A stretch of DNA of 64,000 bases from a virus: positions 62,001 through 126,000 of IMG/VR virus record IMGVR_UViG_3300027710_001079; one strand, given 5' to 3'. The notes beneath the pieces were generated by a model, which searched no databases, was not told the origin of the DNA, and saw only the letters and a list, made by a program, of their open reading frames with translations. Made by a program: the position numbers and the translations under genes. Positions 7,259-63,948 of this stretch are shown here, piece by piece (the first letter of the stretch is position 1; the number at the start of each line of letters is the position of its first letter).

Positions 7259-7266
7259 TATTTATA
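7259..7266 (-). promoter_or_regulatory. T4-type late promoter of the lysis operon
   Basis: Exact TATAAATA on the minus strand, 18 bases upstream of the ATG at 7241. With T4 spacing the transcript starts near 7253. The site lies inside an imperfect inverted repeat (GGGTTCT 7244-7250, AGAACCC 7276-7282). Confidence 0.75.
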
Positions 7267-17962: not shown

Positions 17963-17965
17963 GTT

Positions 17966-20857
17966 TTATCCTATGTAAGCTACAGACCAGTTATCGTTAG
18001 CATCAAACGACAATGTTCCTACCGTTACTACTACTTTCATTGTGTCGCCTGCTGCTAACTTAGCAATGGTACTAACACCTGCATGGTTCATTGTTGTATT
18101 GGCTCCAAATTCTAACATACATAAAGCTGTAGAACTATTTTTATAAACGATAGCCTGACTGATAGTGCTTGACGAGTTACTGCTTGTTCGCATAACTAAA
18201 TGAGTTGAATATAATCCAGCAACTGGTGCTGTGAATATACCAGTCGATGTATTCAATGAGGTTCCTTGTTGATAATCTACAGTAAAGATAGTATTAGTTA
18301 ATGTAGTTACAGAATTAATGGGTCCTCCAGTACCTTCAACACGGAACGCTGGTCTTGTTGGCATAACAACATTGCCACCAACATGTAAGTTGCCGCCGAT
18401 ACCTGCACCGCCTACTACCTGCAATGCTCCGCTATTTGTTGAAGTTGCACTGGTTGTATTTGTAATAGTAAAGATACTGGTTAACGGATTTGCAATAGCA
18501 CCAGTTGCACCAGCAGGACCGGTCGCACCTGTTAATCCAGTAAATCCTCTTGCACCAGTTAATGTAATAACCCAGTTTGAAAAAGTTCCTACTCCGGATA
18601 CGCTATATGGCGTAATTGCTATATTTGTTCCAGTATACCAATTTATATATGCATCTGCACCAAATGCAAGGTTATCTAATGCAAGTAATCTAACTCTAGA
18701 ATTAGGACCATATGCTGTTTGAGTATTTGCTAAATTTACAGTGAATACCATTGTAGTTGAAGTAAATGCCACACTGCTCGTTGATACTAAGCTAGCAAAC
18801 CCTAAACCAGTAGCACCAAATTGTCCAGTGGCACCTGTTGATCCCCACAATCCAGTAGCACCTGTTGATCCGTGTATTCCAGTTGCACCTGTTGACCCAA
18901 AAGATCCAGTTGCACCTGTTGCACCTGGGCCAGTTGCACCTGTTGCTCCTTCCAATCCGGTTGCACCTGTTGATCCTCTAGAACCTACTGCACCAGTTGA
19001 CCCTTGTAAGCCGGAAGCACCTGTTGATCCAGAAGACCCCTGGAATCCAGTTGCCCCTGTTCCGCCGCTACCAGTAGCACCAGTTCCACCTTGAATACCT
19101 GTAGCACCTGTAGCACCCGACGAGCCTTGAAATCCAATTGGTCCTGTAGCACCTGTAGCACCTGTAGTTCCAGTTAATCCTGTAGCACCTGTAGCACCAA
19201 ACCCTGTTGCTCCGTTTGGTCCAATTTCTCCAGTAGCACCTTGTGCTCCAGTAGCACCAGTAGCACCACTTCCAGTAGCACCTGCAGGACCGGTAGCACC
19301 AGTAGCACCAGTAGCACCAGTACCGCCTTGAGCACCTGTAGCACCAAACCCTGTTGCTCCAGTAGCACCTTGAGCACCAGTTGCACCGATATTTCCCTCA
19401 GTTCCCTGCGGTCCTGTTGATCCTGTGCTGCCTTGCAGACCAGTAGCACCTGTTGATCCAATTTCACCTTGAGCACCTGTTGCTCCTTGGCCCGCAAATG
19501 TTCCAGGAATTCCTTGAACACCAGTAGCACCTTGGAGACCGGTAGATCCAGTAGATCCTTGAGGTCCAGTCGAACCTGTACTGCCTTGTAATCCTGTAGC
19601 ACCAGTTGCACCTGTAGAACCGGTAGAACCAATTTGTCCAGTAGCACCCGTAGCACCTGCACCAGTAGCCCCTTGCGGCCCTGTAGCACCAGTAGAACCA
19701 GTAGAACCAATTTGTCCAGTAGCACCCGTAGCACCTGCACCAGTTGCTCCTTGAGCACCAGTAGCACCTGTTGATCCAATATCACCTTGAGCACCAGTAG
19801 CACCTGCACCAGTTGCTCCTTGAGGTCCAGTTGCACCTGTTGATCCCTGTCTTCCGGAAATTGTAAATGTCCAGTTTGAATATGTACCGGAGCCAGTGAA
19901 CGCAGTTACATTAAGAGATAATGTGTTTCCGGTCAAGGTATTGATAAAGCCACCGAGACCAAAAGTTCCATCAACTCCTACTGGTGTTATCTTTACAGAA
20001 CTACCTACTGTAAATGCAGTTTCAGTTGAAAGTTTATTAAGAACAAATGTTTTAATGCCTGCACTAATTTCATGAGTTGAAGTAGAAGTTAATCCTTCGT
20101 ATCCAGCTCCGGAATCTCCTGCAGGTCCAGTTGCACCTGTTGCACCGTCAACTCCTGGTAATCCGCTTGCCCCAGTAGACCCCATAAAGGCCGCAGTACC
20201 TGGAATACCCTGAGCACCTGTAGCACCTGTTAAACCAGTTGCACCTGGGCCGCCGGTAAATCCTGTAGCACCGGTTGCACCTTGATATCCAGTTGCACCC
20301 GAAGCACCAGCCGCACCAGTTGATCCTGTTTCTCCAACTGATCCTCCTGGGCTTGCTGACACCCAAACCGTTCCATTGTAAGTAAACAGTTGACCTGTTT
20401 CTTGAGTGTCAAGCCACATATCTCCAGCAGCAGCCACTAACGGTCTTGATGTTGAAATTACCGCAGTTAACCTAGGTCCAGTTGCACCAGTTGATCCTCT
20501 AGTGCCAGTTGCACCACGAGCACCTGTTGCACCCATTGAAACTACATTGACTACACCTTCAACGATTTCTAAGCCGTTGCCTACTATAATTGTTCCTAGA
20601 GTAGAAGTAGTTGCAGTAGTAGCTACAGTTGTTACATTTAAAAATCCTTCTTGGTCAACATTTAAGCCATCGCCAATTTTAATCCCACCAATAGTGCTGG
20701 TAGTTGCAGTTGACACATTAAATGTGACTAGTTCATTATTAATGAATTCGCCTAACTGTCCTACAGTCATTTGTTTTGTTAGGTTGCCATCAGCAACAGG
20801 CATACTAGTTGCCGTTGTTATTGAACCAATAACAGGTAGATTACTAATGGTACTCAT
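17966..20857 (-). CDS. large collagen-like tail-fibre protein
   Basis: 963 residues. The N-terminal module [10 protein letters not shown] is shared with the next fibre gene. Triplets begin near residue 109, are broken by a TYNGTVWVS segment and by the duplicated globular module (about 253-341), and continue as a very long GAT/GST/GPQ rod to about residue 695. A third, diverged module (about 697-785) and a beta-rich tip (about 800-963) follow. It is almost certainly a trimeric fibre. It overlaps the upstream fibre gene by four bases. Confidence 0.82.
19835..20101 (-). repeat. globular module copy 2 (shared with 17339-17605)
   Basis: The second copy of the ~89-codon module, also starting [10 protein letters not shown], with scattered substitutions relative to copy 1. 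Confidence 0.75.
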
Positions 20858-23394
20858 TTAACTAAACACTCCACAATGCCTGATCCGCTTTCTAACGCAA
20901 ATGCAAATGGCTGTCGACCATTGCTTTCTGTGCTGCCTTTGCCATCCATGTACGGCCAAATAGGTTCTCCTTTTAACACGTATCCTTCTACCTTAACTGG
21001 TACACGCCCAGTTAAAGCAATGTATGTACCGCCTTCTAATTCGCTGTTCATCATGTATGCAGGCTTGCCGGACACTACGCCAATAACATAACAGTCGCTA
21101 GTAGTTATTGCAGTAACTTCTGCAACACCGCCTATCATCATAACTGTACCAACTGAGTATTCCTGGTCTGCTAGATACTTTTCTGCCAAGTCAGCATATA
21201 CTGCAACAGTAGCAGTTCCTCTAAAGAATGATCCTCTAATATCGCCCAAGTCATCTCTTGCAACAATTGTGGCAGTAATATTATCTTCATATCCTTTTGC
21301 AAAATAACTAAACCCGCCTACATACGGTACAATTTCTAAAGCTGCTGCCTGTGCATTACTCGCACCAGTAGCACCAGTTAAACCATCAGCACCAGTAGCA
21401 CCTTGAGCCCCAGTAGCACCAGTTGATCCTTGAGCACCAGTTGCACCTGTAGCACCATCAAATCCAGCCGGTCCGGTAGAGCCCGACAACCCGGTAGCAC
21501 CCGAACTACCAGTAAGTCCAATAGGTCCTTCTGGTCCTGTAGCCCCCATAGCTCCGGTTGCACCTGTAGAACCGATTGGACCAGTTGCACCATCTGGGCC
21601 AGTTGCACCGGTTGATCCCATTACACCTTCTGCTCCAGTAGCACCAGTTGAACCTGATGGGCCAGTAGCACCAGTTATAGGACCAACGCTGATTACAGAA
21701 GCATCGTTTAGTGTAAATTCAATTATGGTATTGCTAGAAGTTAGAGTAGCAGTAGTAATATATTTTCCAGCAGGACCAGTAGCACCAGTTGCTCCAGAAG
21801 CTCCTTGGTTGCCCTGTGTTCCAACTGCTCCGGTAGCTCCTGCAGGACCAGTTGCACCTGTAGCACCAGTAGTTCCTGGTATGCTAGGTCCTTCTGCTCC
21901 GGTAGCACCTGCAGGGCCTGTTGCACCTGTAGCACCAGTAGCACCTGTAGTACCTAATGGACCGGTAGCACCTGTGCTGCCCTGCAACCCTGTAGCACCT
22001 GTAGCACCAGTTGCTCCGATGGCACCTGTGGCACCTGTAGCACCTTGGCCAGTAGCACCTGTAGCACCTGGCTCGCCTTGGTTACCAGTTGCACCTGTTG
22101 ATCCTGTAGCACCAATACCAGTTGCACCCGTTGCACCTAACTCTCCCTGAATACCAGTTGCACCCGTTGCACCGTCTCCGCCAATTGGCCCAGTTGAGCC
22201 AGTAGCACCGTCTGGACCAGTTGCACCTTCAGCACCGGTAGCACCTGTAGCACCTAATCCAGTTGATCCTTGCGGCCCAGTTGCACCAGTTGCTCCTCGA
22301 AGGCCTGTTGCACCAGTTGCACCGAAGTTACCTGTAGCACCTGTTGATCCTAACGGACCAGTAGCACCTGTTGTGCCTAAGTCACCAGTTGGTCCTTGAA
22401 TACCTGTAGCACCAGTAGCACCAAAATTTCCAGTTGCACCAGTACCACCGACTGATCCAGTTGCACCCGGACTGCCGATACCAGTTGAACCAGTTGATCC
22501 TTGTCCTGTAGCACCTGTGGCCCCAGCACCGCCAAATGGTGCACCTGCACTCCAGTTACCATCTCCGTTTTGTTTGATATATAACGTGCCAGTACCTAGT
22601 TCTAAGAATGCAAAACCGAACGGCCTATCATCATACTGACTTCTTTCATCATACGGAGTTGGCCAATATCCTACAGCATCAATAACAAACGGTTGTCCAA
22701 TCTCACCAGTAGCACCTGTAGATCCTTCACCAGTAGCACCTGTAGCACCAATAGGACCAGTTGAACCAGTGCCACCTTGTCCTGCAAATGTTCCAGCAAT
22801 ACCAGTTGCACCTTGTAGGCCAGTAGCACCGGTTGATCCTTGAGCACCAGTTGCACCAGTACCGCCTTGTCCGGGAATACCTTGCGGCCCAGTTGAACCA
22901 GTGCCACCTTGGAATGCTGCTACTCCGGGAATTCCTTGGAGTCCTGTTGCACCTTGCTCGCCAGTTGCACCTTGGGCACCTGTAGAACCAGTAGCACCGC
23001 TGCCTGTAGCACCTTGACTACCTGTAGCACCTGCACTGCCAGCAGGACCTTGAGATCCAGTAGCACCAGTAGCACCCATAAACGCAGCAGTGCCCGGAAT
23101 ACCTTGCGGCCCGGTTGCACCAGTTCCTCCTGGATATCCTATATCACCTTTTGGACCTGTAGACCCAGTTGAACCGTCTTGACCTGTTGCACCAGTTGAT
23201 CCGCTGCCCGTAGCACCTCGTAATCCAATTGGTCCAGTAGCACCGCTTGCACCTACCGCGGTCTCTCTACTAAAAAATGTTCCTAATGTTTCTACAGTTG
23301 TATAGTATGTTTGTCTGGTAGAAGTATCTGCTACTGGTATCAGAACAGCATTGGTTAGTGTGTTTAACGGTGGTAAATTACTTATTGTGCTCAT
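20854..23394 (-). CDS. large collagen-like tail-fibre protein with shared C-terminal domain
   Basis: 846 residues. An N-terminal module ([10 protein letters not shown], about 1-48) is followed by triplet rods (about 48-225 and 285-695), split by a globular insert starting [13 protein letters not shown] (about 230-275). The last ~110 residues (from ADLAEKYL) closely resemble the end of the 2155-residue fibre, including an [15 protein letters not shown] core. That domain may be a trimerising or receptor-binding tip. Confidence 0.82.
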
Positions 23395-49986: not shown

Positions 49987-50925
49987 TTATGATAAAATGT
50001 TAACCCATTTGTCAATAACGTGCTGCCAGTCGTAACTTTTAGCATGTTCTTGGATTTCCAAGCATCGTTGTCTGTACTTGTTAGGGTTATCTTTATAATA
50101 ACTTAAAATTTCCACAGTTTTTTCTAAGAATTCGTCTTCTGCTACGGGCACAGCATGTCCGCCTGCATCACCAATTCTCTGGGCCCAGTGTCCAACATTA
50201 GTACCGATTACTAGCTTGCCGGCCGCACCGCCCTCCATTACAGGAAGTCCAGCACCTTCTTCTGTACTAGCTGCGATAACAGCGTCTATGCCTTTGTAGA
50301 ATCCCGGCATAGTGATAAAACTATTGTGATATTGCTGTGCAACTCTAAACTCTAATCCGGCACGTTTTACTGCTTCTTCAACTAGCCAGCCACGCTTATG
50401 ATACTTAGGCTGTGCTAGATCGCTAGCAACCATATCTTGTGCAAACTCTTCTTTTCTGTGGAAGCTGCCTGTGTATCCTACAACTTTTAAATTGTCGTTA
50501 GGTGTGCTGTAAAAAGTATTATAGTTAATAGCCACAGGAGTTAGTTCAGCAGGCCGCTCGATACCTAGTTCTTTACTAAGATCAACTAGCCATTGGCTAA
50601 CACAACCGTATCTACGGAAACGTTTAAAGTCTTCATATCCGTGATGATGAATCAGTTCAGTCATGTCTAATTTAGCATGACTGATAATAACACACTGTTC
50701 GGGTGCTACTGTAGCATAGTTATATCCTAAGAATCTCCATCCGTGGGGAGTAGTTACAAAAATATCAGTTGTGGAATTTAATTCCAACATTTCTTCTCTA
50801 GTGTAACTTTTGTTCCAAGGAAGTAGTTGACAGTTAAATCCGTGTCCCCATAGATATTTGAACAGCTCGTAATGAACTGTTCCGAATGCCCAGTTAGGCT
50901 CAAAGTAAAAAACTACTCTTTTCAT
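49987..50925 (-). CDS. GT-B (GT4-like) glycosyltransferase
   Basis: 312 residues. The C-terminal domain contains [16 protein letters not shown], the E-x7-E donor-binding motif of GT4 enzymes. The N-terminal half ([20 protein letters not shown]) would bind the acceptor. Sugar and acceptor unknown. ATGA overlap with the next glycosyltransferase. Confidence 0.8.
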
Positions 50926-52079
50926 TTCTTGTCCATCGGTGGATAGTACTTACGCAACCAATCAAGGTTTTCTCGATCTGGATGATCCTGGTACCATCCT
51001 TTGCCGCTATGCACATCGTAGACCATCTGGAAGTATTCTTCATACATCGGTGCAACTCGTTCTAGGCTAAAGTTCTCACCAAACGCACGACACGCGGCCG
51101 GATCAATCTTATCGATGTTTTCAGCAGCCCAAACAAACTGATCAAAGGTTCTGCAACGATATCCAGTAACTCCGTGTACATTATTTTCTGTAAATGATCC
51201 CCAGTCTGTTGTGATAGTAGGAGTACCACTTAACAACATCTCTACTTGCACACCACCGAATGGTTCTGTGTACAGACTAGGAACAAATGCCCCTTTGGCA
51301 CGACTCATTAATTTCTTACGAGTCTCTACATCTGCGTATCCCACAAACTCGACGTGGTCTGGAGTTTCTGCGTAACCCATTGATGCTAAGTTGTTTTGAC
51401 CAGCCATGATTAATTTTGCACCAATCTTTCTAGTTACTTCGATTGCAAGGTGTGCTCCTTTGCCTTCATATACTCGCCCTAAGAACAAGAAGTAATCTTC
51501 TTTCTTTTCTGGCTCATAAGTAAAGTCTTCTAAGTCGAAGTAGTTAGGGACAACACCGTGATACCAATCTTGATTGCATGTTCCTACACTTTGTAATCCA
51601 AAGAAGGCATGCATAATAGCATAGCTTTCAAAGATCTTCCAACGTGCCCAATGACCGCCTGCATATCCAATACCCGGTTCAACAACAATTAAATCGTTGT
51701 GTGCATCGCATACTGCACGAACACCTGATCCCCAGAATGGTAGAATAAAATCTTTAGGTTGTTTACGTAGTCCAATTTCTCGAATAGCGTTTGCATAGAA
51801 TGTTTGATATGCGTGATCGCCTGTATCAAACTTAAAGAAATTTTTACGCCAGTCGTAACTGCCGTAGGCAATTTCTAAATCTTTGTTTGTGGTAACAGTG
51901 ACATGCTCGTCGCATACTAGGTCGCTGTCTTCATGTCCATAGTGGATAACATAATGCCCACGCTCTTTCATCATCTTGCCGAATTTAACGACTTTCTGAG
52001 TATAAGCACAGGCATTATATTCTTTACTGGATACTGTGTGGGGCAAGCCCAATATGTGGAATCTGAATTTTTGGCTCAT
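50922..52079 (-). CDS. GT-B (GT4-like) glycosyltransferase
   Basis: 385 residues. [20 protein letters not shown] and [21 protein letters not shown] are characteristic of the second Rossmann domain of GT4 enzymes. Together with 49987-50925 and GalE it forms a sugar-transfer set, likely to modify host surface glycans or phage components. Confidence 0.85.
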
Positions 52080-52091
52080 AATTTAATTGGT

Positions 52092-52167
52092 TGGTGCTGC
52101 CTGTCGGAATCGAACTGACGACCTTCGGATTACAAAACCGGTGCTCTACCAACTGAGCTAAGGCAGC
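52092..52167 (-). tRNA. tRNA-Thr(UGU), CCA encoded
   Basis: 76 bases. Acceptor GCTGCCT pairs with AGGCAGC; D arm GCTC-AGTTGGTA-GAGC; anticodon loop TTTGTAA (UGU); T arm starting with GTTCGATTCC. CCA is encoded. The anticodon stem (CCGGT/TCCGA) has mismatches at both ends. Reads ACA, likely common in the phage's Thr-rich fibre genes. Confidence 0.88.
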
Positions 52168-52191
52168 GATGTTTTTATTTAAGTAACTACT

Positions 52192-52220
52192 ATATTAGCG
52201 TTATTAGATCTGAATGTCAA
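52192..52220 (-). promoter_or_regulatory. sigma70-type promoter of tRNA-Thr
   Basis: TTGACA (52220-52215), 17-base spacer, TAATAT (52197-52192), about 25 bases upstream of the tRNA. It overlaps the stop of the 2OG-oxygenase gene. Confidence 0.65.
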
Positions 52221-52855
52221 GTTTCTCTGATCTCTTTAAGTTTGCTCCAGTACTGGATAGTAAATCTATCATACTCTGGATTTCTGTCTTTTTTTACTAC
52301 AGGAGTTACACAGTGGTATACTCTGCTAGGAAAGATAACTAATCTATTATTTTTAAATTCAATAGTTTTAAGAGGTTGTTTAGTTTCCCAATCTCCGAAT
52401 ACAAAATCTCCACCTGTAAATTTAGATGGATCTTTAGCAAACATATAGTTCATTGTGGCAGTAGGATTATAATCTCTATGCCAACTGTAATGATCCTCAT
52501 GGGTATATTTGCTCATTAGCATCTGACTAGAATCAGTATATAACATGCTGGTAAAGAGGGAATCATTTGCTTCAAGTAATATTTTCTTTACTTCGTCGGA
52601 CCAAATTCTTTGTTCAAGATAAGTTGAGATTTGAAAACTATTTGGTCGTGAAGCGTATTGCTGGAACAGCCACATATTCTTACTGCTTTTTGACCCGGGA
52701 CTAATGACAATACCCTGGTTACTATTAACCTTGCTAGTAACCATTCCGGGAATTAATCTACAAGCTTCATTAATAATCTGCAAATTGTACACCCACGGTA
52801 CAAAATCATCTATCACAATATGAACAAATGGTTCTTTAAAAATTTCGTATTTCAT
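52217..52855 (-). CDS. 2-oxoglutarate/Fe(II)-dependent oxygenase
   Basis: 212 residues. The ligands of the prolyl-hydroxylase-like double-stranded beta helix are visible: WHRD (His-x-Asp), GGDFVFGD, then FPSRVYHCVTPV with the distal His, and the Arg in YDRFTIQYW that would bind 2OG. Substrate unknown, hydroxylation of a protein or small molecule likely. Four-base overlap with the methyltransferase gene. Confidence 0.85.
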   Translation of the reverse strand: MKYEIFKEPFVHIVIDDFVPWVYNLQIINEACRLIPGMVTSKVNSNQGIVISPGSKSSKNMWLFQQYASRPNSFQISTYLEQRIWSDEVKKILLEANDSLFTSMLYTDSSQMLMSKYTHEDHYSWHRDYNPTATMNYMFAKDPSKFTGGDFVFGDWETKQPLKTIEFKNNRLVIFPSRVYHCVTPVVKKDRNPEYDRFTIQYWSKLKEIRET

Positions 52856-53583
52856 TTAGGATACATGTATAACCAGATCATTGTGCTAGGTCTTGCTTCA
52901 ACACACAATAACATTTTATCATAGTCATCTAAATCGTCAATTAACGGCATATAGGGATTTTTATTCCCTTGCCTTATCAGTTTAATATTGTGAGTTTCTG
53001 CAAATCGTGCAACTAATTTATCAGTTAGACCAGGTCTATTACAGTCATGACTTTCAACCATAACTGAAGTTTTTGCTAACTCGGGCACCACTGTGAGATC
53101 AAGGATGTCTTCTTCTGCACCTTCGCAATCCATAAAGATAAACGGATTGTCAGCGGTGGCAAGGAATGATCTATAGTTGCTTATAGTGCAATCTGTGCTG
53201 AATAGAATTTTGTTTACACCGTTAGCGGCAGCATTTTCTCTTGCAATGTCTACAGCAGTTTTGTTTACATCGAACACTACAGTTTTTGTCTGTGTTCTTT
53301 TTGCTAGACCTATGCCATAGTAACCTTCAGCACAACCTATGTTTAAGATTAAATCGTGCGGCTGATTAATAACTCGCTCAATGTCTTCAAACAATTCACA
53401 CTCGTATAATCCTAGTAATTTACTAGCACAGTCGCCGTCGCCCCAGCTAAACTTGTGCAAGATTTTCATTGCTTGAAACGGTCCTTGGTATACGAATCCC
53501 TGTGTCCTTTGGTACACTAATTCTGTGAGTTCGGCTCTACGTGCCCATGAGGCTCTGATATAATTGTTTTTAACTTCTGACAT
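52852..53583 (-). CDS. FkbM-like SAM methyltransferase
   Basis: 243 residues. ILNIGCAEGYYGIGLA is the SAM-binding motif I, FDVNKTA motif II, and MDCEGAEEDIL is the typical D-x-EGAE of FkbM-type O-methyltransferases. It sits between two oxygenase-like genes. Acceptor may be a glycan, consistent with the glycosyltransferases further along, but this is only suggestive. Confidence 0.8.
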   Translation of the reverse strand: MSEVKNNYIRASWARRAELTELVYQRTQGFVYQGPFQAMKILHKFSWGDGDCASKLLGLYECELFEDIERVINQPHDLILNIGCAEGYYGIGLAKRTQTKTVVFDVNKTAVDIARENAAANGVNKILFSTDCTISNYRSFLATADNPFIFMDCEGAEEDILDLTVVPELAKTSVMVESHDCNRPGLTDKLVARFAETHNIKLIRQGNKNPYMPLIDDLDDYDKMLLCVEARPSTMIWLYMYPK

Positions 53584-54397: not shown

Positions 54398-55192
54398 TTA
54401 ATTATAACTTATTTTCTTCTCCGACGCAAGTCCTAGAAACATCAAAGTTTGGATAACATATCGACCTGGATCAAACTGCCACCATTCTTTTCCAATCTGC
54501 CAACTACCCGGAGCAGAGTGATGGTTATAGTGCCAGCCTTCACCGAATGTTAAGTACGACCACCACCAAACATTATGTGATTGATCTCGATAGTCAGTTG
54601 CAACCCGTGTTCCGAACATTGGGCTATGATCAATCCAATTACTCAATCTAGAAGCCATTGTGTTAAAAAATACAGGGATAATGTAGAGAAATACTGCAAT
54701 CATTGGATCAATTGCCACTAACACTGCTACTACTAGTAAGACTATTAGCATATAGTACTCGTGCATAAATCTATGAACAGGGTCGTTTATAATATCTTTT
54801 ACAGACCATTTGTTAAATTTTCCACCGTAGTCACCAACGAACGCACCTATTGGGCCTAGTACTACTGGGCTGTGCGGATCACCGGGTTTGTCTGCAAATT
54901 TATGATGTGCTCTATGTACAAATACCCATCCCACTGAGCTACCAGTACAGCCTAAATTTCCAAAGAAGCTAAACAAATATTCTAAGGGTTTCCAAAGTTG
55001 ATACGATTTATGTGTCAACAATCTATGAAAAGTAACTGTAATACCGAGACAGGTAATTAAAAAATATCCAACTAAAGAAAGTAGCCAGTAGTTCCAACTA
55101 ATAGGAGTTACTATTGCCCACACAAAAATACCAGCAGCGGCTAACTGCATTGCAATAAAAAACCACTCTCGTGGATAAAAATACTGTTTCAT
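54398..55192 (-). CDS. membrane fatty-acid desaturase 1
   Basis: 264 residues from the ATG at 55192 (ATGA overlap with desaturase 2). Three His boxes of the acyl-CoA/acyl-lipid desaturase family: HRLLTH, HRAHH and GEGWHYNHH, with four hydrophobic spans. These di-iron enzymes put a cis double bond into an acyl chain. Family members are delta-9 type; the position cannot be told. Confidence 0.88.
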   Translation of the reverse strand: MKQYFYPREWFFIAMQLAAAGIFVWAIVTPISWNYWLLSLVGYFLITCLGITVTFHRLLTHKSYQLWKPLEYLFSFFGNLGCTGSSVGWVFVHRAHHKFADKPGDPHSPVVLGPIGAFVGDYGGKFNKWSVKDIINDPVHRFMHEYYMLIVLLVVAVLVAIDPMIAVFLYIIPVFFNTMASRLSNWIDHSPMFGTRVATDYRDQSHNVWWWSYLTFGEGWHYNHHSAPGSWQIGKEWWQFDPGRYVIQTLMFLGLASEKKISYN

Positions 55193-55947
55193 TTTTTTAC
55201 AATCCTTATCACGTAAGATATTAAATCTACTTCCCACCAATGTTCTTGCAAGTTCCATTTACTGGGATTTGTATGATGGTTATTGTGCCATCCTTCGCCC
55301 CATAGTAAAATTGCAAAAGGCCATAAATTTTTACTTTCATCACGGTGCTGGTGGTTAGTATAACCGTGACTGTGTCCAAAATATGTAAAGCTGTTTAATG
55401 CAAGATGAGTCATTGCAAGTGGCACAGCCCATGCAAAATAAAATAGCCAAGGACTTATTAAAAATAACAACCCTGCCCACCCTATTACTAAAATCTTATA
55501 ATATTTGTTAATCCATAGATGATGGTAGGTAAAGAGATCTCTAATTAGATATCTTTTTAATTCTCCACCATAATTTAAAATGTGTGGGAAAAACACTCTC
55601 CAACCGTTGATATTAGGTGCATGAGGATCTTTTTCAGTATCGCTGTACGCATGATGTTCTCGATGAATGTGAACCCATCCTAAAATGCTTCCTCTACCTG
55701 CCTGGATAGCAAACCAACTGAACAGCCATTCTAATATAGGATATTTGAATTGAAAACTTTTATGGGTCCAATATCTATGCATCATCATGCTGACCCCTAC
55801 TCCTGCATACAAAAAGTACCCAAGTAAGATAGTCAATGCTTCGGTAACTCCTATGTCGAAAATCCAAAAGCCGGCTACAGCAATCAATAGACTGATGATC
55901 TGTAAAAAGGATACGAATCCCGAGCTTGCTGCAAAGATATTTTTCAT
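55189..55947 (-). CDS. membrane fatty-acid desaturase 2
   Basis: 252 residues. His boxes HRYWTH, HREHH and GEGWHNNHH. The ATG at 55947 is exactly where transcription from the late core 55953-55960 would start, with no Shine-Dalgarno: a predicted leaderless mRNA. Four-base overlap with desaturase 1. Confidence 0.88.
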   Translation of the reverse strand: MKNIFAASSGFVSFLQIISLLIAVAGFWIFDIGVTEALTILLGYFLYAGVGVSMMMHRYWTHKSFQFKYPILEWLFSWFAIQAGRGSILGWVHIHREHHAYSDTEKDPHAPNINGWRVFFPHILNYGGELKRYLIRDLFTYHHLWINKYYKILVIGWAGLLFLISPWLFYFAWAVPLAMTHLALNSFTYFGHSHGYTNHQHRDESKNLWPFAILLWGEGWHNNHHTNPSKWNLQEHWWEVDLISYVIRIVKK

Positions 55948-55952
55948 ACCTA

Positions 55953-55960
55953 TATTTATT
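55953..55960 (-). promoter_or_regulatory. late-type promoter core of the desaturase pair
   Basis: AATAAATA on the minus strand; with T4 spacing +1 is 55947, the A of the desaturase ATG. Confidence 0.55.
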
Positions 55961-56001
55961 AGGAGTTTTTTCCAAGAAAAAATTTAGCAGTTATATACCT
56001 A

Positions 56002-56008
56002 CTAAATA
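56002..56008 (+). promoter_or_regulatory. late-type promoter core of the symporter operon
   Basis: CTAAATA on the plus strand, the variant reported for cyanophage-type late promoters as I recall; predicted start near 56014, followed by AAAAGGA before the ATG. Confidence 0.5.
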
Positions 56009-56025
56009 AAATTTTAAAAGGATTC

Positions 56026-57393
56026 ATGATGGAAATTATCACAGCCTCTCTGCTTTTTATGCTGACAATGTTTGGTGTATTAATGTATGCAGGAAGAAAT
56101 TGGAGTTCGAGCAATATGAGTTTTTTGTTTGCCAATAGATCGTTAAATTACATTCCCGCTGGCCTTGCAATCAACGCTCATTGGTTTTGGGCTATTGCAT
56201 TATTTGTAGGACCAACAGTGGCGTATAATTGGGGCTGGATAGGTTTATTATGGTTTGCTATTCCTAATGCATTGAGTTTATTAGTAATGGCATTTATTGG
56301 GTCCAGGATACGTAACAACTACACAGACGGATTTAGTTTAAGCGAGTACATCCAAGAAAATTTTAGTCCAAGACTTGCAAAATTATTTCAGTTAAAATTT
56401 GCATTAATTTCATTTGCAGGATTGTTATTGTCCTTTACCGCTATTGGCAAGCTATGGGCATTCTTAGGACTGGCAGCGTTTGTAGATCCTGTTTATGCAA
56501 CACTGGTTGTGGGGCTTATTACATTAGGATTTACTCTGCGTGGCGGTATAAGAAGTAGCATTTTTAGCGGTGCAACTATGACCCTCTTGTGGATTCTATT
56601 TTTTGGAGTCTCGGCATTCAGTGTGTTTACTTCAGATGTTTCGATTCTCGTAACAGGAAAGAATGCACTGGAAACTATTTGGAATGAAAAGTTTTTAACT
56701 AATTTTGCATTGGCATTTTTAGTTGCTATCGGCGTGGGTGCTACTAGTCACGGAATGATGTGGCAAAAGACATTCTCAATGCCTAAAGAAAATATTTGGC
56801 CTAGTTTTATAATTGCTTCAATAATATTTGTTCTAATGGTACTATCATTAGGAAGTTTATCACTATTCACATTTGCTTCCGGAACAGCAGTAAGTCATCC
56901 TGAATTATCTGCATTAGCTGGAATAGCAACACTGTTTGGGGCAAGCGGCCTACTTGTATTTTCTATTCTGTTAATAGGTCAAACGTCTACTATCATGGAT
57001 TCTGCAATCACCTACATGGCCAGTCTAAGTTCACGAGAATGGGTAAAGAAGGACGATCCTAAGGTCAGTAAAATTGCTATGATTCTGTTTATAACTGCGG
57101 CATGGATTGTTTCATTTTTAAAGTTAGAAATCTGGACCATCTTTATGTTGATGGGAGCTATTAGAATAGTGATGTTTGCTACAATTTCTACTCATGCGTT
57201 AGGTTTAAAGATTTCAGAAGCAGCAAGTTTTTATAGTTCTATAGTAGCAATTATTGGTGCAATTTATCTTTCTTATACTGCAAGAATTGATAAGCTCCCA
57301 ATATATGATATGTATTCTGCATATTTTGCTATCGGCTTACCTTTGTTAGCAATAGTCGGAAGCCACTTCTTTAACAAATTTAAAAGGCATTAA
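56026..57393 (+). CDS. SSS-family (SLC5-like) solute symporter
   Basis: 455 residues, about 12 membrane segments. NAHWFWAIALFVG and GGIRSSIFSGATMTLL match sodium/solute symporter signatures (recalled). The two tandem ATGs (56026, 56029) are both possible; AAAAGGA favours the second by spacing. Transporters of this size are rare in phages. It probably imports an organic solute used by, or exports a product of, the enzymes that follow. The PP-loop gene begins right after its stop. Confidence 0.8.
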   Translation: MMEIITASLLFMLTMFGVLMYAGRNWSSSNMSFLFANRSLNYIPAGLAINAHWFWAIALFVGPTVAYNWGWIGLLWFAIPNALSLLVMAFIGSRIRNNYTDGFSLSEYIQENFSPRLAKLFQLKFALISFAGLLLSFTAIGKLWAFLGLAAFVDPVYATLVVGLITLGFTLRGGIRSSIFSGATMTLLWILFFGVSAFSVFTSDVSILVTGKNALETIWNEKFLTNFALAFLVAIGVGATSHGMMWQKTFSMPKENIWPSFIIASIIFVLMVLSLGSLSLFTFASGTAVSHPELSALAGIATLFGASGLLVFSILLIGQTSTIMDSAITYMASLSSREWVKKDDPKVSKIAMILFITAAWIVSFLKLEIWTIFMLMGAIRIVMFATISTHALGLKISEAASFYSSIVAIIGAIYLSYTARIDKLPIYDMYSAYFAIGLPLLAIVGSHFFNKFKRH

Positions 57394-58611
57394 ATGTTAT
57401 CATCGAGATCTAATGTTGGATATTACAAAACCGGCAACAAATTATTCACTGAAAAAATTGAAGCAGTTATCGAGGCGAACAAAACTAAGGCCGATGTAGA
57501 GTGGGAATTCAATAATGATATCTGGGATGCAGTAGACTGGACTGTTGAGCCTACACTAAGTTTAAATGAACTGTATAAACTTCGTGCTCAACAAATTCGC
57601 GACAAGTATGATTATCTTGTTTTATTTTCTAGCGGCGGTTCTGATAGCAGGAACATGGCTTATGCATTTTTAAAAAACGGAATTCATCTTGATGAGATTG
57701 TTGCAGGTTCTCCGGCGTCGGGCTTAAACAATTGGAACAATGATTTAACCTCTCATAATCCTGAAAATACTATTACTGAAACCGTTGTTGCACAGATGCC
57801 TTTCATGCACGAAATATCAGTTAACTATCCTAATGTAAAGTTAACAAATCATGATTATTTCATCGATATGGTTAATTATAAACCGGATGAGTGGATTAGA
57901 AAATGCGGCAATTATATACACCCGACATATGCAGCTAGATATAATCTAGAAAGATATTCTCATCTTAAAAAAATATTAGACTCTGGAAAGACAATTGGTT
58001 TTATATACGGAATAGACAAGCCCTTTATTACTATTCATAAGGGCATGGTATGGTCGTTAATATACGATTACGGAGTCAGCAATGCGTTCCAGTCAATTGA
58101 CCATCCGCTCGCAGATGTTGAATTATTTTATTGGTCGCACGAGTTGCCTGAAATAGTAATTAAACAGAGCCATGTAGTTACCAAGGCTGCTCATGTTCCA
58201 GAAAACGTGCATAGTATAATGGATACTATTCATAATGATTCTAGAGAGAACTATAAAGAAATTTATAGTAAACACTCCGCTAGATATCAACGTGCAATCA
58301 TTCCTTACATTTACCCCATGCTTGAAGAATTTCCCTGGCAGTGTGCTAAACCTGCATTAGTGTTTATGGGAGAACACGATGCTTGGTTTGATAAATTGCA
58401 CAAAGGAACAATAGTTCATCAAAAAATAATGTCAGACTATGATCGATTTATTAAAAGTATTGATCCTAAATACTTTAGAACAAGGCAACAAAATTGGGAT
58501 ATTGAAGTAGACGAACATTCTCATTTAGATCCTAACTATGTTATCGGCTTTAAACCCTGCATGTTAAAAAAGAAAATTGGTCCAGTTTCTAATTTCCTAC
58601 CAAAGTTATGA
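57394..58611 (+). CDS. PP-loop (SGGxDS) adenylating enzyme
   Basis: 405 residues. LVLFSSGGSDSRNMAYAFL places the PP-loop SGGSDS at 80-85, which binds ATP as in asparagine synthetase, tRNA-thiolation enzymes and other N-type ATP pyrophosphatases. The rest has no signature I know, so the substrate is open. It may activate an acid as an acyl-AMP for amide formation. ATG follows the transporter stop directly and the end overlaps the ATP-grasp gene by four bases. Confidence 0.72.
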   Translation: MLSSRSNVGYYKTGNKLFTEKIEAVIEANKTKADVEWEFNNDIWDAVDWTVEPTLSLNELYKLRAQQIRDKYDYLVLFSSGGSDSRNMAYAFLKNGIHLDEIVAGSPASGLNNWNNDLTSHNPENTITETVVAQMPFMHEISVNYPNVKLTNHDYFIDMVNYKPDEWIRKCGNYIHPTYAARYNLERYSHLKKILDSGKTIGFIYGIDKPFITIHKGMVWSLIYDYGVSNAFQSIDHPLADVELFYWSHELPEIVIKQSHVVTKAAHVPENVHSIMDTIHNDSRENYKEIYSKHSARYQRAIIPYIYPMLEEFPWQCAKPALVFMGEHDAWFDKLHKGTIVHQKIMSDYDRFIKSIDPKYFRTRQQNWDIEVDEHSHLDPNYVIGFKPCMLKKKIGPVSNFLPKL

Positions 58612-59855
58612 ACATAGCTATATTTGGAAGCAATCACTGTTTACATTTTTTCTCTCAGTATCTGGAAAAATATGAAAACGTTAATAATGTCTATCACTAT
58701 TCTGCAGGACCCCTACATGTACCTACTGAAAAATATCATCCTATAATTTTTAAAGAAACTTTAGAAGAATATTTAAATGAAGTTGATACGTTAAAAGAAA
58801 AAGAAATAGATTTAATCATACCGTTAACACTGCCTTTCCAATTATGGTCTAAGTTTCAAAATAAGATTAGAAGTACAGGAATCTCGGTATTGTCGCCAAC
58901 TTCAGATCTTGCGATGTTAGAATGGTCTAAAATTTACGGTAAAAAGTTTATGCAGTCAATTGGTGTACCGACTGCTAAACATAAGACATTGTTGTATGAC
59001 GAGGTTATAGATAATTTTTTTACAATAGAACGTCCCTTTGTTTTAAAATTTGATCAGGATTTTAGATTTGGCAGACAGTCGATAGTTGTTACAGAAAATA
59101 ACTTAAATGAAGTTTATACAAACTTTTTGGATACTGGTAAAACAAGGATGTCTGATCTGCTTAAAAAAGGTGATCATACTGATTACATAATAGAAGAATT
59201 TTTAGCAGGCCCTGAATATTCTTTGCATATTTTATGTAACGGAACTAATTGGTCATACTTAGGATCTTCAAGAGACTACAAAAAAGAGTTTAACAGTGAC
59301 ACTGGAAATAATGTGTGTAGCATGGGATGCTATTCTGTAACTGATCCTATAAATGATCAAGCTGTTCAAATTGTTAACCAAGTACTAACAGCACTGGAAA
59401 ATAACGGCACTCCTTATGTAGGGGTTTTATATCTGGGAATGATAATACATAACGGAGTACACAAAGTACTAGAGATTAATACTCGCCCAGGTAATCCAGA
59501 ATTTAATACGATATTGTCTATGATAGACGATAACATAGTAGAATTATTTTTTAATTGCGTCAATAACAATGTAAAAAAATCTATTAGATTTAAATCAGGC
59601 AGTGCTGTTACTATACAACTGGTCCATAAAGATTACATTTTAGAATATCGAGAAAACGTAAAATATCCTATATTGAAAGACATCCCACCTGACATAATTG
59701 TTAGTTACGGATCATTAGACCCGCACCTTCGATATTGTAATCTTACTGCTACAGGAGAAACACCTCAGCTAGCTTCTGAAAAAATATCAGATTATTTAGA
59801 TAAACAATATTTGGGCGATTTTAGATACAGGACAGATATAGGTATTTTACCTTAA
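58608..59855 (+). CDS. PurD-like ATP-grasp ligase
   Basis: 415 residues, close to PurD (about 425). An N-terminal Rossmann-like part (MNIAIFGSNHCLHFF) is followed by an ATP-grasp domain with RPFVLKFDQDFRFGRQSIVV, and EINTRPGNPEFNTI, which aligns with EFNARFGDPETQ of glycinamide ribonucleotide synthetases. It joins a carboxylate to an amine using ATP. Pairing with the PP-loop enzyme suggests a dedicated pathway, not purine synthesis. Confidence 0.78.
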   Translation: MNIAIFGSNHCLHFFSQYLEKYENVNNVYHYSAGPLHVPTEKYHPIIFKETLEEYLNEVDTLKEKEIDLIIPLTLPFQLWSKFQNKIRSTGISVLSPTSDLAMLEWSKIYGKKFMQSIGVPTAKHKTLLYDEVIDNFFTIERPFVLKFDQDFRFGRQSIVVTENNLNEVYTNFLDTGKTRMSDLLKKGDHTDYIIEEFLAGPEYSLHILCNGTNWSYLGSSRDYKKEFNSDTGNNVCSMGCYSVTDPINDQAVQIVNQVLTALENNGTPYVGVLYLGMIIHNGVHKVLEINTRPGNPEFNTILSMIDDNIVELFFNCVNNNVKKSIRFKSGSAVTIQLVHKDYILEYRENVKYPILKDIPPDIIVSYGSLDPHLRYCNLTATGETPQLASEKISDYLDKQYLGDFRYRTDIGILP

Positions 59856-61313
59856 AAGAGTTTCAAGATATTTCATTATTCTTGTAACTATTCTTGATCG
59901 TATTTCTTCTGAATATGTATTATTAGTTGAAGTTATAATTTTTCTTATTTCCGGCCAGGTGTAGTCAAGCCCTGCAAGTCCCACAGTATCGCCCCATCTC
60001 ATAGTTGGTTTTTTGTTCTTTGATTCTAGATAAGAAATACTGTTCTTTGATATTTCAATAGCGTCAGAGTATGTCAATCCCATATTGTTAATCCAACCTT
60101 GCTCGTTAGTTGAGTAACCGTACTTTGTAGGGTTTTTCATAAACTCACTACTCCATGCAAAATTTTTAATAGTTGGATCTAAAAATAATGGATTTATATT
60201 TGCAGCATCTAGTTTGAATGCATCGCTACCTACTATTTCAATCCATTCTTCTGCTGACTTTTTATCTTCGTAGGGTAGTCCTATCATAAAATTACCAATT
60301 GTAAAGACATCATCACCCCATATGTCTTTACATTGTTGAAGAGTATCTATTATTTTTTCTCTAGAAAGTCCTTTTCCGATTGCTTTATTTCCTCGATCGT
60401 TTAGGCTTTCAACTCCAAATAATGCAACTTTTAATCCACTTTCTTTTAATAATGAGATTGTCTTTGGGTGTGCATGTAATAAATCTAACCTCAAATAAGT
60501 TACAAAATTAATTTTAAAAGGTAATTTTGAATACACATTATCATATAGTATTTCTAATTTTTCAACACTATCATTGTGTGTATCGTCTAAGTAGACGTAA
60601 TTTGTTGTACGATATCTTTCGTAATTTTTTAAAAATTGATTTTTTAATATTTCAGTTTCTTTTAAGTAGTCTAATTTCTTTTTACCGTTTAACGGAAATG
60701 AACAAAAATTACACCTAAATATACAACCTCTAGATATTTCTATCGGCAATCCTTCTCGGTAATCAATAGCATCTGACTGGTGCCACGAAAATTTATCTGT
60801 ACTAAAATTAAATGTAGACGCTGTAATATCGTCATTAACAATAACACACCCATCTTCTACTGTATATTTAAAAAATGGATTTTTATCCTCGCACCATTTA
60901 GTAAAATTAATAACTGATGTATCGGCATATCCTTCTATATAAGTATCAAACAACTCTCCGCTGTCTCTTTTAAATGCTTTTGCACCGCCAGATACAAACC
61001 GGCATTTAGATTTTTTTGAAGAAACTAAATTTTTAATTTTCTCAGTTTGTTCTTTTGTAAACAGTGTTTGGGAAGAAGCCATTGCAGGAGTAAGGAATGT
61101 AGTTGAAAATCCAATCCAAATTGTTCCTTCATCAACATGCCGATCTAATATACTTAAAAATTTGTCAAACCCGATTTTTAAAATTTGAGGGAAATATTCA
61201 ACAACTTGAACTGTGTAACCATTGTTCCTTAATTGGTTTGCAATTTGATATGCTCCAATTGATCTAAAAGGGATTGAAAAACCCACGCCAGTGAAAATTA
61301 TAATTTGTGCCAT
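59847..61313 (-). CDS. radical SAM enzyme with B12-binding-like N-terminal domain
   Basis: 488 residues. An N-terminal Rossmann region (about 1-130, starting MAQIIIFTGVGFSIPF) is arranged like the cobalamin-binding domain but lacks the usual DxHxxG. The [4Fe-4S] motif is Cys197, Cys201, Cys204 (RGCIFRCNFC). A GNFMIGLPYEDK stretch is typical of this radical SAM class. Methyltransfer or C-C bond chemistry is likely. Its 3' end overlaps the ATP-grasp gene by nine bases, tail to tail. Confidence 0.85.
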   Translation of the reverse strand: MAQIIIFTGVGFSIPFRSIGAYQIANQLRNNGYTVQVVEYFPQILKIGFDKFLSILDRHVDEGTIWIGFSTTFLTPAMASSQTLFTKEQTEKIKNLVSSKKSKCRFVSGGAKAFKRDSGELFDTYIEGYADTSVINFTKWCEDKNPFFKYTVEDGCVIVNDDITASTFNFSTDKFSWHQSDAIDYREGLPIEISRGCIFRCNFCSFPLNGKKKLDYLKETEILKNQFLKNYERYRTTNYVYLDDTHNDSVEKLEILYDNVYSKLPFKINFVTYLRLDLLHAHPKTISLLKESGLKVALFGVESLNDRGNKAIGKGLSREKIIDTLQQCKDIWGDDVFTIGNFMIGLPYEDKKSAEEWIEIVGSDAFKLDAANINPLFLDPTIKNFAWSSEFMKNPTKYGYSTNEQGWINNMGLTYSDAIEISKNSISYLESKNKKPTMRWGDTVGLAGLDYTWPEIRKIITSTNNTYSEEIRSRIVTRIMKYLETLLR

Positions 61314-61318
61314 CGTCC

Positions 61319-61330
61319 TATTTATAAATA
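61319..61330. promoter_or_regulatory. palindromic bidirectional late promoter
   Basis: TATTTATAAATA contains an exact TATAATA-type T4 core TATAAATA on both strands (plus 61323-61330, minus 61326-61319). With T4 spacing the plus start is 61336 (ATG 61337) and the minus start 61313 (the ATG itself). Both divergent radical SAM mRNAs would lack leaders. Confidence 0.75.
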
Positions 61331-61336
61331 TGGGTT

Positions 61337-62233
61337 ATGCAGCCTATTAATTTTTATTACGAACTATCGCCAGAACAAAATCATTTTCCTGTTATATATG
61401 TTGATATTACTCATCGATGTAACATGGAGTGTGCTAATTGTTTTATTCCTAACAGAGATGTTCCAGATATGGATAAGGATAGACTTTATGATGTATTAAA
61501 ACGATTACCCTTTAAAACTGAGATCAGAATGTTAGGAGGGGAACCAACTGTTCGAAAAGACATATTTGAAATCGTAGAAAAAATTAGAGAGCTAGGACAC
61601 AGACCAAATATGCAGTCTAACGGTCTTATGCTTGCTAAACCAGGATATGCTAAAGACTTAGCCAAGGCAGGTATGCGTAGCATCTATATTAGTGTTAACG
61701 GTGCAGATGATAATGATGTTTACGAGACCATGGACGGAATGCGATGTGCTGAAAGAAAAATTGCAGCATGGCAAGCGTGTGTTGATGCTAAGATGAATGT
61801 TAATTTGGGGTGCATCATGCAAAAAGGCACTAACGATCATATCCCAGCTAGACTATTTGAACTGTCAAAGACCATCGGTGGCAATCCTATTTTTAGATTT
61901 AGAAACGTTGGACAAATTGGAAGATACACATTAGAGCAAGATCAAAATTGGACATTTGAGGAAACTATAAACAATGTATGTGCAGTGTTTGGAAAAGACC
62001 CAGAATGGGCTAAGAATAGAAACACTATTGCGGGATTCACTGAGCCCAACATTATTTTCTTTCCGTTAGATGAAACTAAAAAATTAAAAACGCCTTGGGT
62101 AAAAATTACAAACTGGAGCCCCACAGATGGTAAAGTTCCTGATCCAGGCAGCAAGAGAAGAGGTCGATTAACTCAAAATTTTAAAATTGCTCCTCATTTT
62201 GAACATATCATTTTAAATGAAAATGTCTATTAA
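61337..62233 (+). CDS. radical SAM enzyme without SPASM domain
   Basis: 298 residues. Cys28, Cys32, Cys35 (CNMECANC) and MLGGEPT at ~65-71 are those of the SPASM/twitch-type peptide-modifying radical SAM family. No C-terminal Cys cluster is present and the chain ends early, so it lacks the auxiliary cluster. Opposite in direction to the B12-type gene, sharing its promoter. The end overlaps the cupin gene by 17 bases. Confidence 0.85.
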   Translation: MQPINFYYELSPEQNHFPVIYVDITHRCNMECANCFIPNRDVPDMDKDRLYDVLKRLPFKTEIRMLGGEPTVRKDIFEIVEKIRELGHRPNMQSNGLMLAKPGYAKDLAKAGMRSIYISVNGADDNDVYETMDGMRCAERKIAAWQACVDAKMNVNLGCIMQKGTNDHIPARLFELSKTIGGNPIFRFRNVGQIGRYTLEQDQNWTFEETINNVCAVFGKDPEWAKNRNTIAGFTEPNIIFFPLDETKKLKTPWVKITNWSPTDGKVPDPGSKRRGRLTQNFKIAPHFEHIILNENVY

Positions 62234-62960
62234 ACCTCTTAGTACTCCGTGGAACGATTGTACAGACACCTTGTTACATTCTAAATCTCTTGACGAGTGG
62301 TACACAGATAAACCTAAATTAGGATACAATGTTTTTAAGTTGCCTAGTCAGTATTCTTTTAATCTCAAAGAAATGCAAGACCAAGTTTCTTCTCTTTTAG
62401 AAAAACAAAATACAATAAGCATTTCTAAAAATGCCAAAGGTGAAAAATTCAATAGGTACAAGGGACTGGGATTTTTTTCTAGACCTAATTGTGCAACTCC
62501 GCTCGAGGATCATTTTACCAGAAGAGATGTTAAGCACGGTGTAACATATGCCGACGATCTGCATCTAAATGCGAATCTACCAGACTTGATAGAAAACGAT
62601 TTTACAGAAACTACCTGTATAATGAACGAGTATTTTAATAATATCTTTTCGTCTTTTAAATCAAAGATTACAAAGGCTAGCTTATTAGAATTGCGGCCTA
62701 TGGGATGGTTAGGATCGCATGTTGATTTTCCTTACTATAAAACAGTAAGGTTACATACTAGCATATTTGGTAATGAGGGTGCTTGGTACGAAGTTGAAGG
62801 AGAAAAATTTCAACTACCTCAAGACGGGCATTGGTATTTTATAGATACTGGAAAGTATCATTCTGTTTGGAACCACGGACCAAACAGTAGAATCACCTTA
62901 AATGTAAATTTAGAAATTCAAAGTGATCCTAGAGAATTAGCATTACTGGGTCTTTTGTAA
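62217..62960 (+). CDS. Asp/Asn-hydroxylase-like cupin protein
   Basis: 247 residues (an ATG two codons in is equally possible). GSHVDFPYYKTVRLHTSI and FIDTGKYHSVWNHGPNSRITLNVNLEI match the aspartyl/asparaginyl beta-hydroxylase fold: His-x-Asp, distal His and a 2OG-binding Arg. Coupled to the radical SAM gene, it may hydroxylate the same product or a carrier-bound substrate. Its 3' end overlaps the ACP gene by 18 bases, convergently. Confidence 0.7.
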   Translation: MKMSIKPLSTPWNDCTDTLLHSKSLDEWYTDKPKLGYNVFKLPSQYSFNLKEMQDQVSSLLEKQNTISISKNAKGEKFNRYKGLGFFSRPNCATPLEDHFTRRDVKHGVTYADDLHLNANLPDLIENDFTETTCIMNEYFNNIFSSFKSKITKASLLELRPMGWLGSHVDFPYYKTVRLHTSIFGNEGAWYEVEGEKFQLPQDGHWYFIDTGKYHSVWNHGPNSRITLNVNLEIQSDPRELALLGLL

Positions 62961-63185
62961 AGACTTAATGTAGTCAATAACCATCTGCACTGTTTCAATA
63001 GTTTCGGCAACCTCCTCGTCTATTTCTAATCCAAATTCATCTTCAACAGACAGTAACATTTCTACAGTATCTAAGCTGTCGCCACCTAAGTCTTCAACAA
63101 ACTTCATGTTGGGCTGTATATTTTTAATATCAATCCCTAGCTGTTTACTGATAATTTTTTTTACTTTTAGTTCTACTTCATCCAT
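62943..63185 (-). CDS. acpP: acyl carrier protein
   Basis: 80 residues, acidic, the usual length. LGGDSLDTVE has the phosphopantetheine-accepting Ser37 in a DSLD motif, with the four-helix pattern (helix II VEMLLSVEDEFGLEI). Needs a host transferase to become active. It follows desaturase 3 (8-base overlap), so acyl chains on this carrier may be precursors of a phage lipid. Confidence 0.92.
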   Translation of the reverse strand: MDEVELKVKKIISKQLGIDIKNIQPNMKFVEDLGGDSLDTVEMLLSVEDEFGLEIDEEVAETIETVQMVIDYIKSLQKTQ

Positions 63186-63948
63186 GATCTTTCCTTAATG
63201 CTATTAATTTAATTAGCTGTGCTGACATATCAAATTCCCACCATTTGATTTTTTGATTCCATTGTTGTGGATTTTTATGATGGTTGTTATGCCATTCTCC
63301 AACAATGTACCCTACAAAAATATTGTTGAAAGAGCCATCGCCCGTATTGAAATTTCTATAATTTAATATTGCTTCTCGATGATTTAAAATATTAATCGAT
63401 ATATAAGCTAACCACAGCAACAGTACACTTACATTATATACAAGTGCTAACCTAAAGTCAATGAATCCAAGTATTACATAAAATAATAGAATAATTCCTA
63501 GATAGTAGTTGTGTGCTATCATTATCCATTTATCGTTTAGAGATTCCGCAGTCCGTATCGGAATCTTTTTAAAGTTCCAATCAAACATTGCTATTTTAAA
63601 AAAACTTAGATACTTGCCGTGTGGATCTTTTTCTGTATCTGAAAATATATGATGTGCTCTGTGCGACATAGCATATGCGTAAGGTGAACCTGCACATGCC
63701 AGCGGCGATGCAATACTCATGATAACATGCCAAAATCTAGTTGTTTTAAATGAGTTATGTGAAAAATATTTGTGTAATGCAATATTATGCAGTACCTGCA
63801 TAAAAGCATAAAACAACAAGGCTGAATACAGTATAAAAGAGTATTGCCCTGTTTGGACAAAATATCCCAATGCTGCTGTGCCTAATAATACTTGTAAGAT
63901 AATAGTGCGTGTTGTAGTTGCAGCACTGCCCCGAAACATTTTTTTCAT
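63178..63948 (-). CDS. membrane fatty-acid desaturase 3
   Basis: 256 residues. His boxes HKYFSH, HRAHH and GEWHNNHH, four hydrophobic spans. It is related to desaturases 1 and 2 but diverged. Start overlaps the stop of the gene upstream (TAATG). Co-transcribed with ACP. Confidence 0.88.
   Translation of the reverse strand: MKKMFRGSAATTTRTIILQVLLGTAALGYFVQTGQYSFILYSALLFYAFMQVLHNIALHKYFSHNSFKTTRFWHVIMSIASPLACAGSPYAYAMSHRAHHIFSDTEKDPHGKYLSFFKIAMFDWNFKKIPIRTAESLNDKWIMIAHNYYLGIILLFYVILGFIDFRLALVYNVSVLLLWLAYISINILNHREAILNYRNFNTGDGSFNNIFVGYIVGEWHNNHHKNPQQWNQKIKWWEFDMSAQLIKLIALRKDHG

Follow-up and report, generated by a model that had tools for sequence, protein, structure and literature searches.

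Late transcription in phage T4, which depends on gp55, gp33 and gp45, is a textbook system, and its studied members produce leadered mRNAs that in T4 itself mostly bear a Shine-Dalgarno (SD) sequence. The T4 late octamers occupy positions -13 to -6 relative to the transcription start (PMC1524935). T4 gp55 recognizes only a -10-like element, the DNA upstream of which is not conserved, and in the late complex the DNA is open between -12 and +2, with gp33/gp45 lying upstream (PMC7892883). The marine T4-like phages S-PM2 and Syn9 use a late promoter, NATAAATA, in which the first octamer base is relaxed (PMC2984593); for the pelagimyophages late promoter prediction has been reported as unsuccessful (PMC7029224). 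Bidirectional promoters have been described from bacteria: in E. coli, separations of 18, 10 and 23 bp are common between their divergent starts, and a polymerase bound in one direction keeps another from binding in the opposite direction (PMC12825309). The 'bidirectional promoters' of rV5 are likewise sigma-70-like, and the open-licence literature yielded no account of T4-type late promoters that are leaderless or bidirectional, which is weak evidence of their absence.

The DNA examined here, henceforth the window, is a stretch of 64,000 nucleotides that represents bases 62001-126000 of a 192,832-base IMG/VR virus record. A preliminary description had reported in it a T4 late core on each strand of a 12-bp palindrome, and both the sequence of this perfect palindrome, TATTTATAAATA, and its coordinates are exact (Table 1). 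It is found once in the window, where 0.05 copies are expected, and once in the whole record. The T4-type late octamer TATAAATA is present exactly on both of its strands with a 4-bp overlap, such that the locus combines the 8-bp element of T4-type late promoters (TATAAATA or NATAAATA) in each direction with the shared or overlapping -10 elements on opposite strands that characterize the bidirectional promoters of Warman and Grainger. The minus-side octamer lies exactly 5 nt from its ATG, which lacks an SD sequence; on the plus side the spacing is 6 nt rather than 5, and the DNA upstream of each octamer is coding sequence of the opposite gene. The starts calculated earlier from the T4 spacing, one base before the plus-strand ATG and on the minus-strand ATG, are arithmetically right, and the T4 geometry predicts leaders of 1 and 0 nt, in keeping with the suggestion of mRNAs without a leader.

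Table 1. Positions of the palindrome, its octamers and predicted starts, the flanking genes and two further late sites, in window coordinates unless marked otherwise
Feature	Position	Strand	Remarks
Palindrome TATTTATAAATA, proposed bidirectional late promoter	61319..61330	.	Sole copy in window and 192.8-kb record
Late octamer TATAAATA of plus-strand gene	61323..61330	+	6 nt to ATG 61337
Late octamer TATAAATA of minus-strand gene	61319..61326	-	5 nt to ATG 61313
Predicted +1 of plus transcript, 1-nt leader	61336	+	T4 octamer at -13..-6 (PMC1524935)
Predicted +1 of minus transcript, at A of ATG, no leader	61313	-	T4 octamer at -13..-6 (PMC1524935)
Radical SAM protein, 298 aa, CxxxCxxC motif CNMECANC	61337..62233	+	PF04055, 8e-20, 72.1 bits
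Radical SAM protein, 488 aa	59847..61313	-	PF04055, 3.5e-15, 57 bits
Asp/Arg beta-hydroxylase-like protein, 247 aa	62217..62960	+	PF05118, 1e-8
Late site AATAAATA, d=5, before 252-aa desaturase-like gene 55189-55947	55953..55960 (record 117953-117960)	-	
TATAAATA, longer-spacing class (17 nt), before gene 6681-7241	7259..7266	-	

Based on these features we propose, at a probability of roughly 0.7, that two T4-type late promoters, each leaderless or nearly so and excluding each other in occupancy, are merged in the palindrome. The motif, its start-locked 5-nt spacing, its enrichment and its recurrence are observed directly and are set out below; we infer dependence on gp55, the actual start sites, leaderless translation and competition between the two directions. 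As a gp55-type holoenzyme would read a single 8-bp -10-like element and no -35, 12 bp would be enough to serve both strands. Initiation on each strand at the A of the ATG, or at the base preceding it, would give rise to leaderless or near-leaderless late mRNAs, which would have to be translated without a Shine-Dalgarno sequence by direct recognition of the 5'-AUG, to which a 70S ribosome would bind (reviewed in PMC9031893). Since the bubbles predicted from T4 geometry (61324-61337 and 61312-61325) overlap and each complex would cover the start of the opposite gene, occupancy should be mutually exclusive, and with one polymerase per site at a time the two genes would compete molecule by molecule while sharing a late, replication-coupled timing. 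The earlier contention that their expression is obligately linked is hence rejected on steric grounds, as overlapping -10-type elements cannot open at once; what links the genes should be timing and mutational fate, in competition for occupancy, and not simultaneous firing. The direction taken may, as a speculation, depend on the polarity of the loaded sliding clamp.

The palindrome is shared with T4, which uses the identical octamer and has the identical 12 bp at 116450-116461 between its divergent late genes 26 and 51. Together with the occurrence of the exact palindrome in well over 100 IMG/VR stretches, this removes the ground for calling the arrangement unusual, as had been done initially. 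However, the T4 26/51 site has SD-bearing leaders on both sides, unlike the predicted 0 and 1 nt here, and none of the 30 start-proximal sites of T4 is nearer than 12 nt to its start codon, 23 of them having an SD motif. A bidirectional late palindrome as such is not new to nature, and the difference is the leaderless, start-codon-fused version. The predicted separation of 61313 and 61336 is like that of the 23-bp class among the prokaryotic bidirectional promoters of Warman and Grainger, in which a symmetric -10 serves both strands, but those are bacterial sigma-70 promoters, whereas here a T4-type late octamer is combined with predicted starts on or next to the ATGs.

The two genes, separated by 23 bp, are both of the radical SAM type as first read, with scores above the Pfam Radical_SAM cutoff of 29.5 bits. 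The 488-aa protein resembles cobalamin-dependent radical SAM enzymes, the TIGR04479, TIGR04072 and HpnJ models all scoring far below cutoff. The 298-aa gene is probably co-transcribed with the 247-aa hydroxylase-like gene, and a hydroxylase-like gene follows it in loci L002-L006 and L012-L014 as well. We retained 80 IMG/VR relatives of the 298-aa protein (34-89% identity), and in most of the closer ones a late-type element, in some cases CTAAATA or ATAAGTA, lies 4-8 nt ahead of the 298-type ATG. None of these closer relatives has the 488-aa gene as its divergent neighbor, other genes lying upstream there; a pattern scan of IMG/VR for 488-aa homologs returned none, and distant homologs (26-34%) turned up in fetched loci. 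The conservation of the palindrome in relatives, put forward originally as a check, thus fails at this locus because the 488/298 pair itself is not conserved and the 298-aa gene has a different divergent partner elsewhere. In L018 and L019, homologs of the hydroxylase-like, 298-type and 488-type genes lie in a row in one direction with the 488-type downstream, which suggests that the three work together in one pathway and that in the window a shared divergent promoter provides their co-expression in place of an operon. Similarity searches of the locus against phage isolates, both as DNA and as protein, gave nothing useful. The surrounding metabolic island (window 54398-62960 and 63178-63948) includes three fatty acid desaturase-like genes, a PurD-like ATP-grasp protein, the two radical SAM proteins and the Asp/Arg hydroxylase-like protein.

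We then examined the recurrence of the palindrome with start codons on both sides in IMG/VR, scoring an ORF where an open frame of 60 aa or more, or one running off the contig, was present on a given side. The 5/5 form, CAT-N5-TATTTATAAATA-N5-ATG, occurs in 113 stretches, of which 101 have ORFs on both sides. The asymmetric 5/6 form, which chance would favor twofold over 5/5, is found in 26 (both ORFs in 10), the 10/10 form in nine (both ORFs in two), and a control palindrome of equal base composition at 5/5 spacing in five, none with both ORFs. To handle the redundancy of IMG/VR we counted pair types: the 5/5 and 5/6 sites with both ORFs represent 26 gene-pair types from 45 protein clusters, and the palindromic arrangement has therefore arisen repeatedly. 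By inspection of the sequences, these types include pairs in which the partner of a radical SAM-like gene is hydroxylase-like (L106) or resembles glycosyltransferases (L103). Judged at the sequence level, the compact two-way start-codon design is a real, little-noticed layout for late genes that recurs in many phages.

These counts bear on the alternative that a single strand is active here and that motif symmetry alone accounts for the opposite octamer. Near-palindromes are easily formed from ATAAATA because of its partial self-complementarity, and the octamer before the 298-aa gene recurs in relatives where its divergent partner does not. We nevertheless regard this as unlikely, given the exact 5-nt spacing on the minus side in a gene lacking an SD sequence, the far greater frequency of 5/5 over 5/6 or 10/10 sites in IMG/VR and the presence of both ORFs at most of the former.

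The fixed quantity behind the merged sites emerges from the most frequent pair type, two small divergent phage proteins of about 137 and 126 aa, for which we fetched 65 IMG/VR contigs (L338-L401). Their intergenic region comes in two versions, one of 22 bp with the octamers merged into the palindrome and one of 34 bp with the octamers apart; across the two versions, the octamer is exactly 5 nt from the 137-aa start in 62 of 63 readable loci (four re-read from their own ATG; the exception, L399, has 6 nt), and the divergent 126-aa start shows the same 5 nt in the printed sequences. As the 5 nt are kept in the merged and separate forms alike, what is conserved is the start-codon spacing, the palindrome being the fully merged state. 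Furthermore, we counted NATAAATA sites in about 1 Mb of IMG/VR DNA surrounding the palindromes; with the palindromes excluded, 86 of 208 are at d=5 (5 nt between octamer and ATG). The same mode accounts for 24 of 29 sites among the matches listed for a 517-kb palindrome-bearing contig, and for 28/52, 14/36 and 12/28 in three more large ones (gaps of 3-12 nt, no ORF filter, in all four). The present phage, the pelagiphage HTVC008M and many jumbo phages of IMG/VR have this zero-leader spacing more often than any other.

Across the 192.8-kb record, exact TATAAATA is found six times, both strands taken together, always 5-17 nt ahead of an ATG, the site at 151297 being start-proximal only via an internal ATG of its ORF; the relaxed NATAAATA has 25 sites, 19-20 of which, depending on the ORF set, are within 40 nt of a gene ATG. 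Of all 7-mers with 15 or more copies in the record, ATAAATA has the highest start-proximal fraction (20/25 against a background of 11%; binomial p about 5e-15), a non-random placement right upstream of genes as is typical of T4-type late promoters. It also ranks first for fixed spacing, with a d=5 mode of seven sites, the SD-like AAGGAGA coming behind. When the last octamer base is changed, only 7 of 176 sites are start-proximal. An SD motif is found in none of the six d=5 genes versus 42-44% of other genes in the record, and four of the six stand at the head of divergent units; a second class of sites is placed 17-31 nt from the ATG, some with an SD motif. This placement marks the octamer as a genuine promoter-like element of the record, in leaderless as well as leadered styles. 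We also considered and ruled out a chance origin of the palindrome, based on the palindrome count, the placement of TATAAATA, the 7-mer ranking and the IMG/VR controls. The record has a second bidirectional late site, TATAAATATTTATT (record 129849-129862; L086, G000:C1:125500-145000), in which TATAAATA on the plus strand and AATAAATA on the minus strand overlap by 2 bp in a geometry opposite to that of TATTTATAAATA, 9 nt and 17 nt ahead of divergent ATGs.

The octamer five bases before an ATG could also be read as a translation-initiation element, such as an A/U-rich site recognized in SD-like fashion by the ribosome or by S1, in mRNAs starting further upstream. Five nucleotides is the usual SD spacing, d=5 is also where AAGGAGA has its peak in this genome, and co-directional genes have d=5 sites between them in some cases; in HTVC008M, too, several are inside gene runs and not at unit heads. 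Yet the octamer also occurs 17-31 nt upstream, in places along with an SD motif, where a ribosome site is impossible, it is the late promoter consensus of T4 and S-PM2 (PMC2984593, PMC1524935), the heads of divergent units in its own record have more than their share of d=5 sites, and a ribosome-binding role gives no cause for merged palindromes. Hence, we hold this possibility to be slightly less probable still than activity of one strand alone.

Among cultured phages, NATAAATA at 5 nt is absent from T4, Syn9, pf16, RaK2, Atu_ph07 and Phosso, the last three being covered over 200, 400 and 400 kb respectively, and is found once in S-PM2. S-PM2 and Syn9 share with the present phage the relaxed first octamer base, but their sites are leadered (one and none at d=5, respectively). 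HTVC008M has 9 of 18 start-proximal NATAAATA sites at exactly 5 nt, the spacing also preferred here. Gene starts throughout are ORF-based, except in the named HTVC008M and T4 cases, for which the deposited starts were used; those in HTVC008M that follow the octamer by 5 nt belong to the tail tape measure, baseplate wedge, CsgF and tail completion genes, among others. Its genes for the DNA end protector (gene 2-like, start 18916, minus strand) and head completion protein (gene 4-like, start 18943, plus strand) are divergent, with a gap of 5+8+8+5 bp made up of back-to-back octamers that are each 5 nt from a start. These octamers, one of which is TCTAAATA, abut without palindromic overlap, whereas those of the window overlap. 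HTVC008M carries annotated genes of the gp55, gp33 and gp45 (sliding-clamp) types.

A further proposal, early use by the host polymerase of a sigma-70-type bidirectional promoter with a symmetric -10 (TATAAA), draws on the predicted 23-bp separation of 61313 and 61336, a common E. coli class (PMC12825309), but appears improbable, as the full NATAAATA is selected, few sites being start-proximal once its last base is changed, and the genes that the octamer marks in HTVC008M are late structural ones. That the perfect dyad between two divergent genes is an operator for a dimeric regulator is very improbable indeed, in view of its single copy in the record, the genome-wide occurrence of each half as an octamer and the 26 gene-pair types served by the same palindrome in other phages.

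Extending the reading of TATTTATAAATA as a merged late promoter pair, we give somewhat better than even odds to the generalization that in many uncultured and pelagibacter-infecting phages of the T4 superfamily the late promoters are fused to start codons, the mRNAs from these promoters are leaderless and divergent pairs are merged into 12-bp palindromes, each a single site from which two leaderless genes are driven. If so, a distinct mode of late transcription-translation coupling would exist inside the T4 late system. Were the promoters ATG-locked across a broad set of marine and freshwater phages, then promoter, transcription start and translation start would be one element, which may explain why late promoters have been difficult to predict in pelagimyophages (PMC7029224). 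The rule NATAAATA-N5-ATG would then find late genes together with their correct start codons in metagenomes, and leaderless translation in phage takeover would become testable, for which HTVC008M on Ca. Pelagibacter ubique is a suitable isolate.

Searches for gp55 (phrog_234, phrog_12791) and gp33 (PF16805) found neither in the 192.8-kb record, which is probably partial because its DNA polymerase (record 50238-52907, L084) resembles that of 345-490-kb phages, most closely that of 470-490-kb ones; the closest polymerases are those of the jumbo phages Phosso (50.5% identity) and Atu_ph07 (47%). By this likeness the complete genome is probably several hundred kb long. Genes like gp55 are present in five of seven palindrome-bearing large contigs, and also in RaK2, Atu_ph07 and Phosso. 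Phage S21 was likewise not found in the 192.8-kb record, so that it could not be connected here with leaderless late genes, although HTVC008M encodes S21. Auxiliary genes of the present phage (L084, L085 and window 1835-2335) code for GTP cyclohydrolase, cysteine dioxygenase, ferredoxin, part of an ATP-dependent protease and peptide deformylase. At window 16880-23394 we observed three consecutive tail fiber proteins (360, 963 and 846 aa) that share many tail-fiber profiles, some of them collagen-like.
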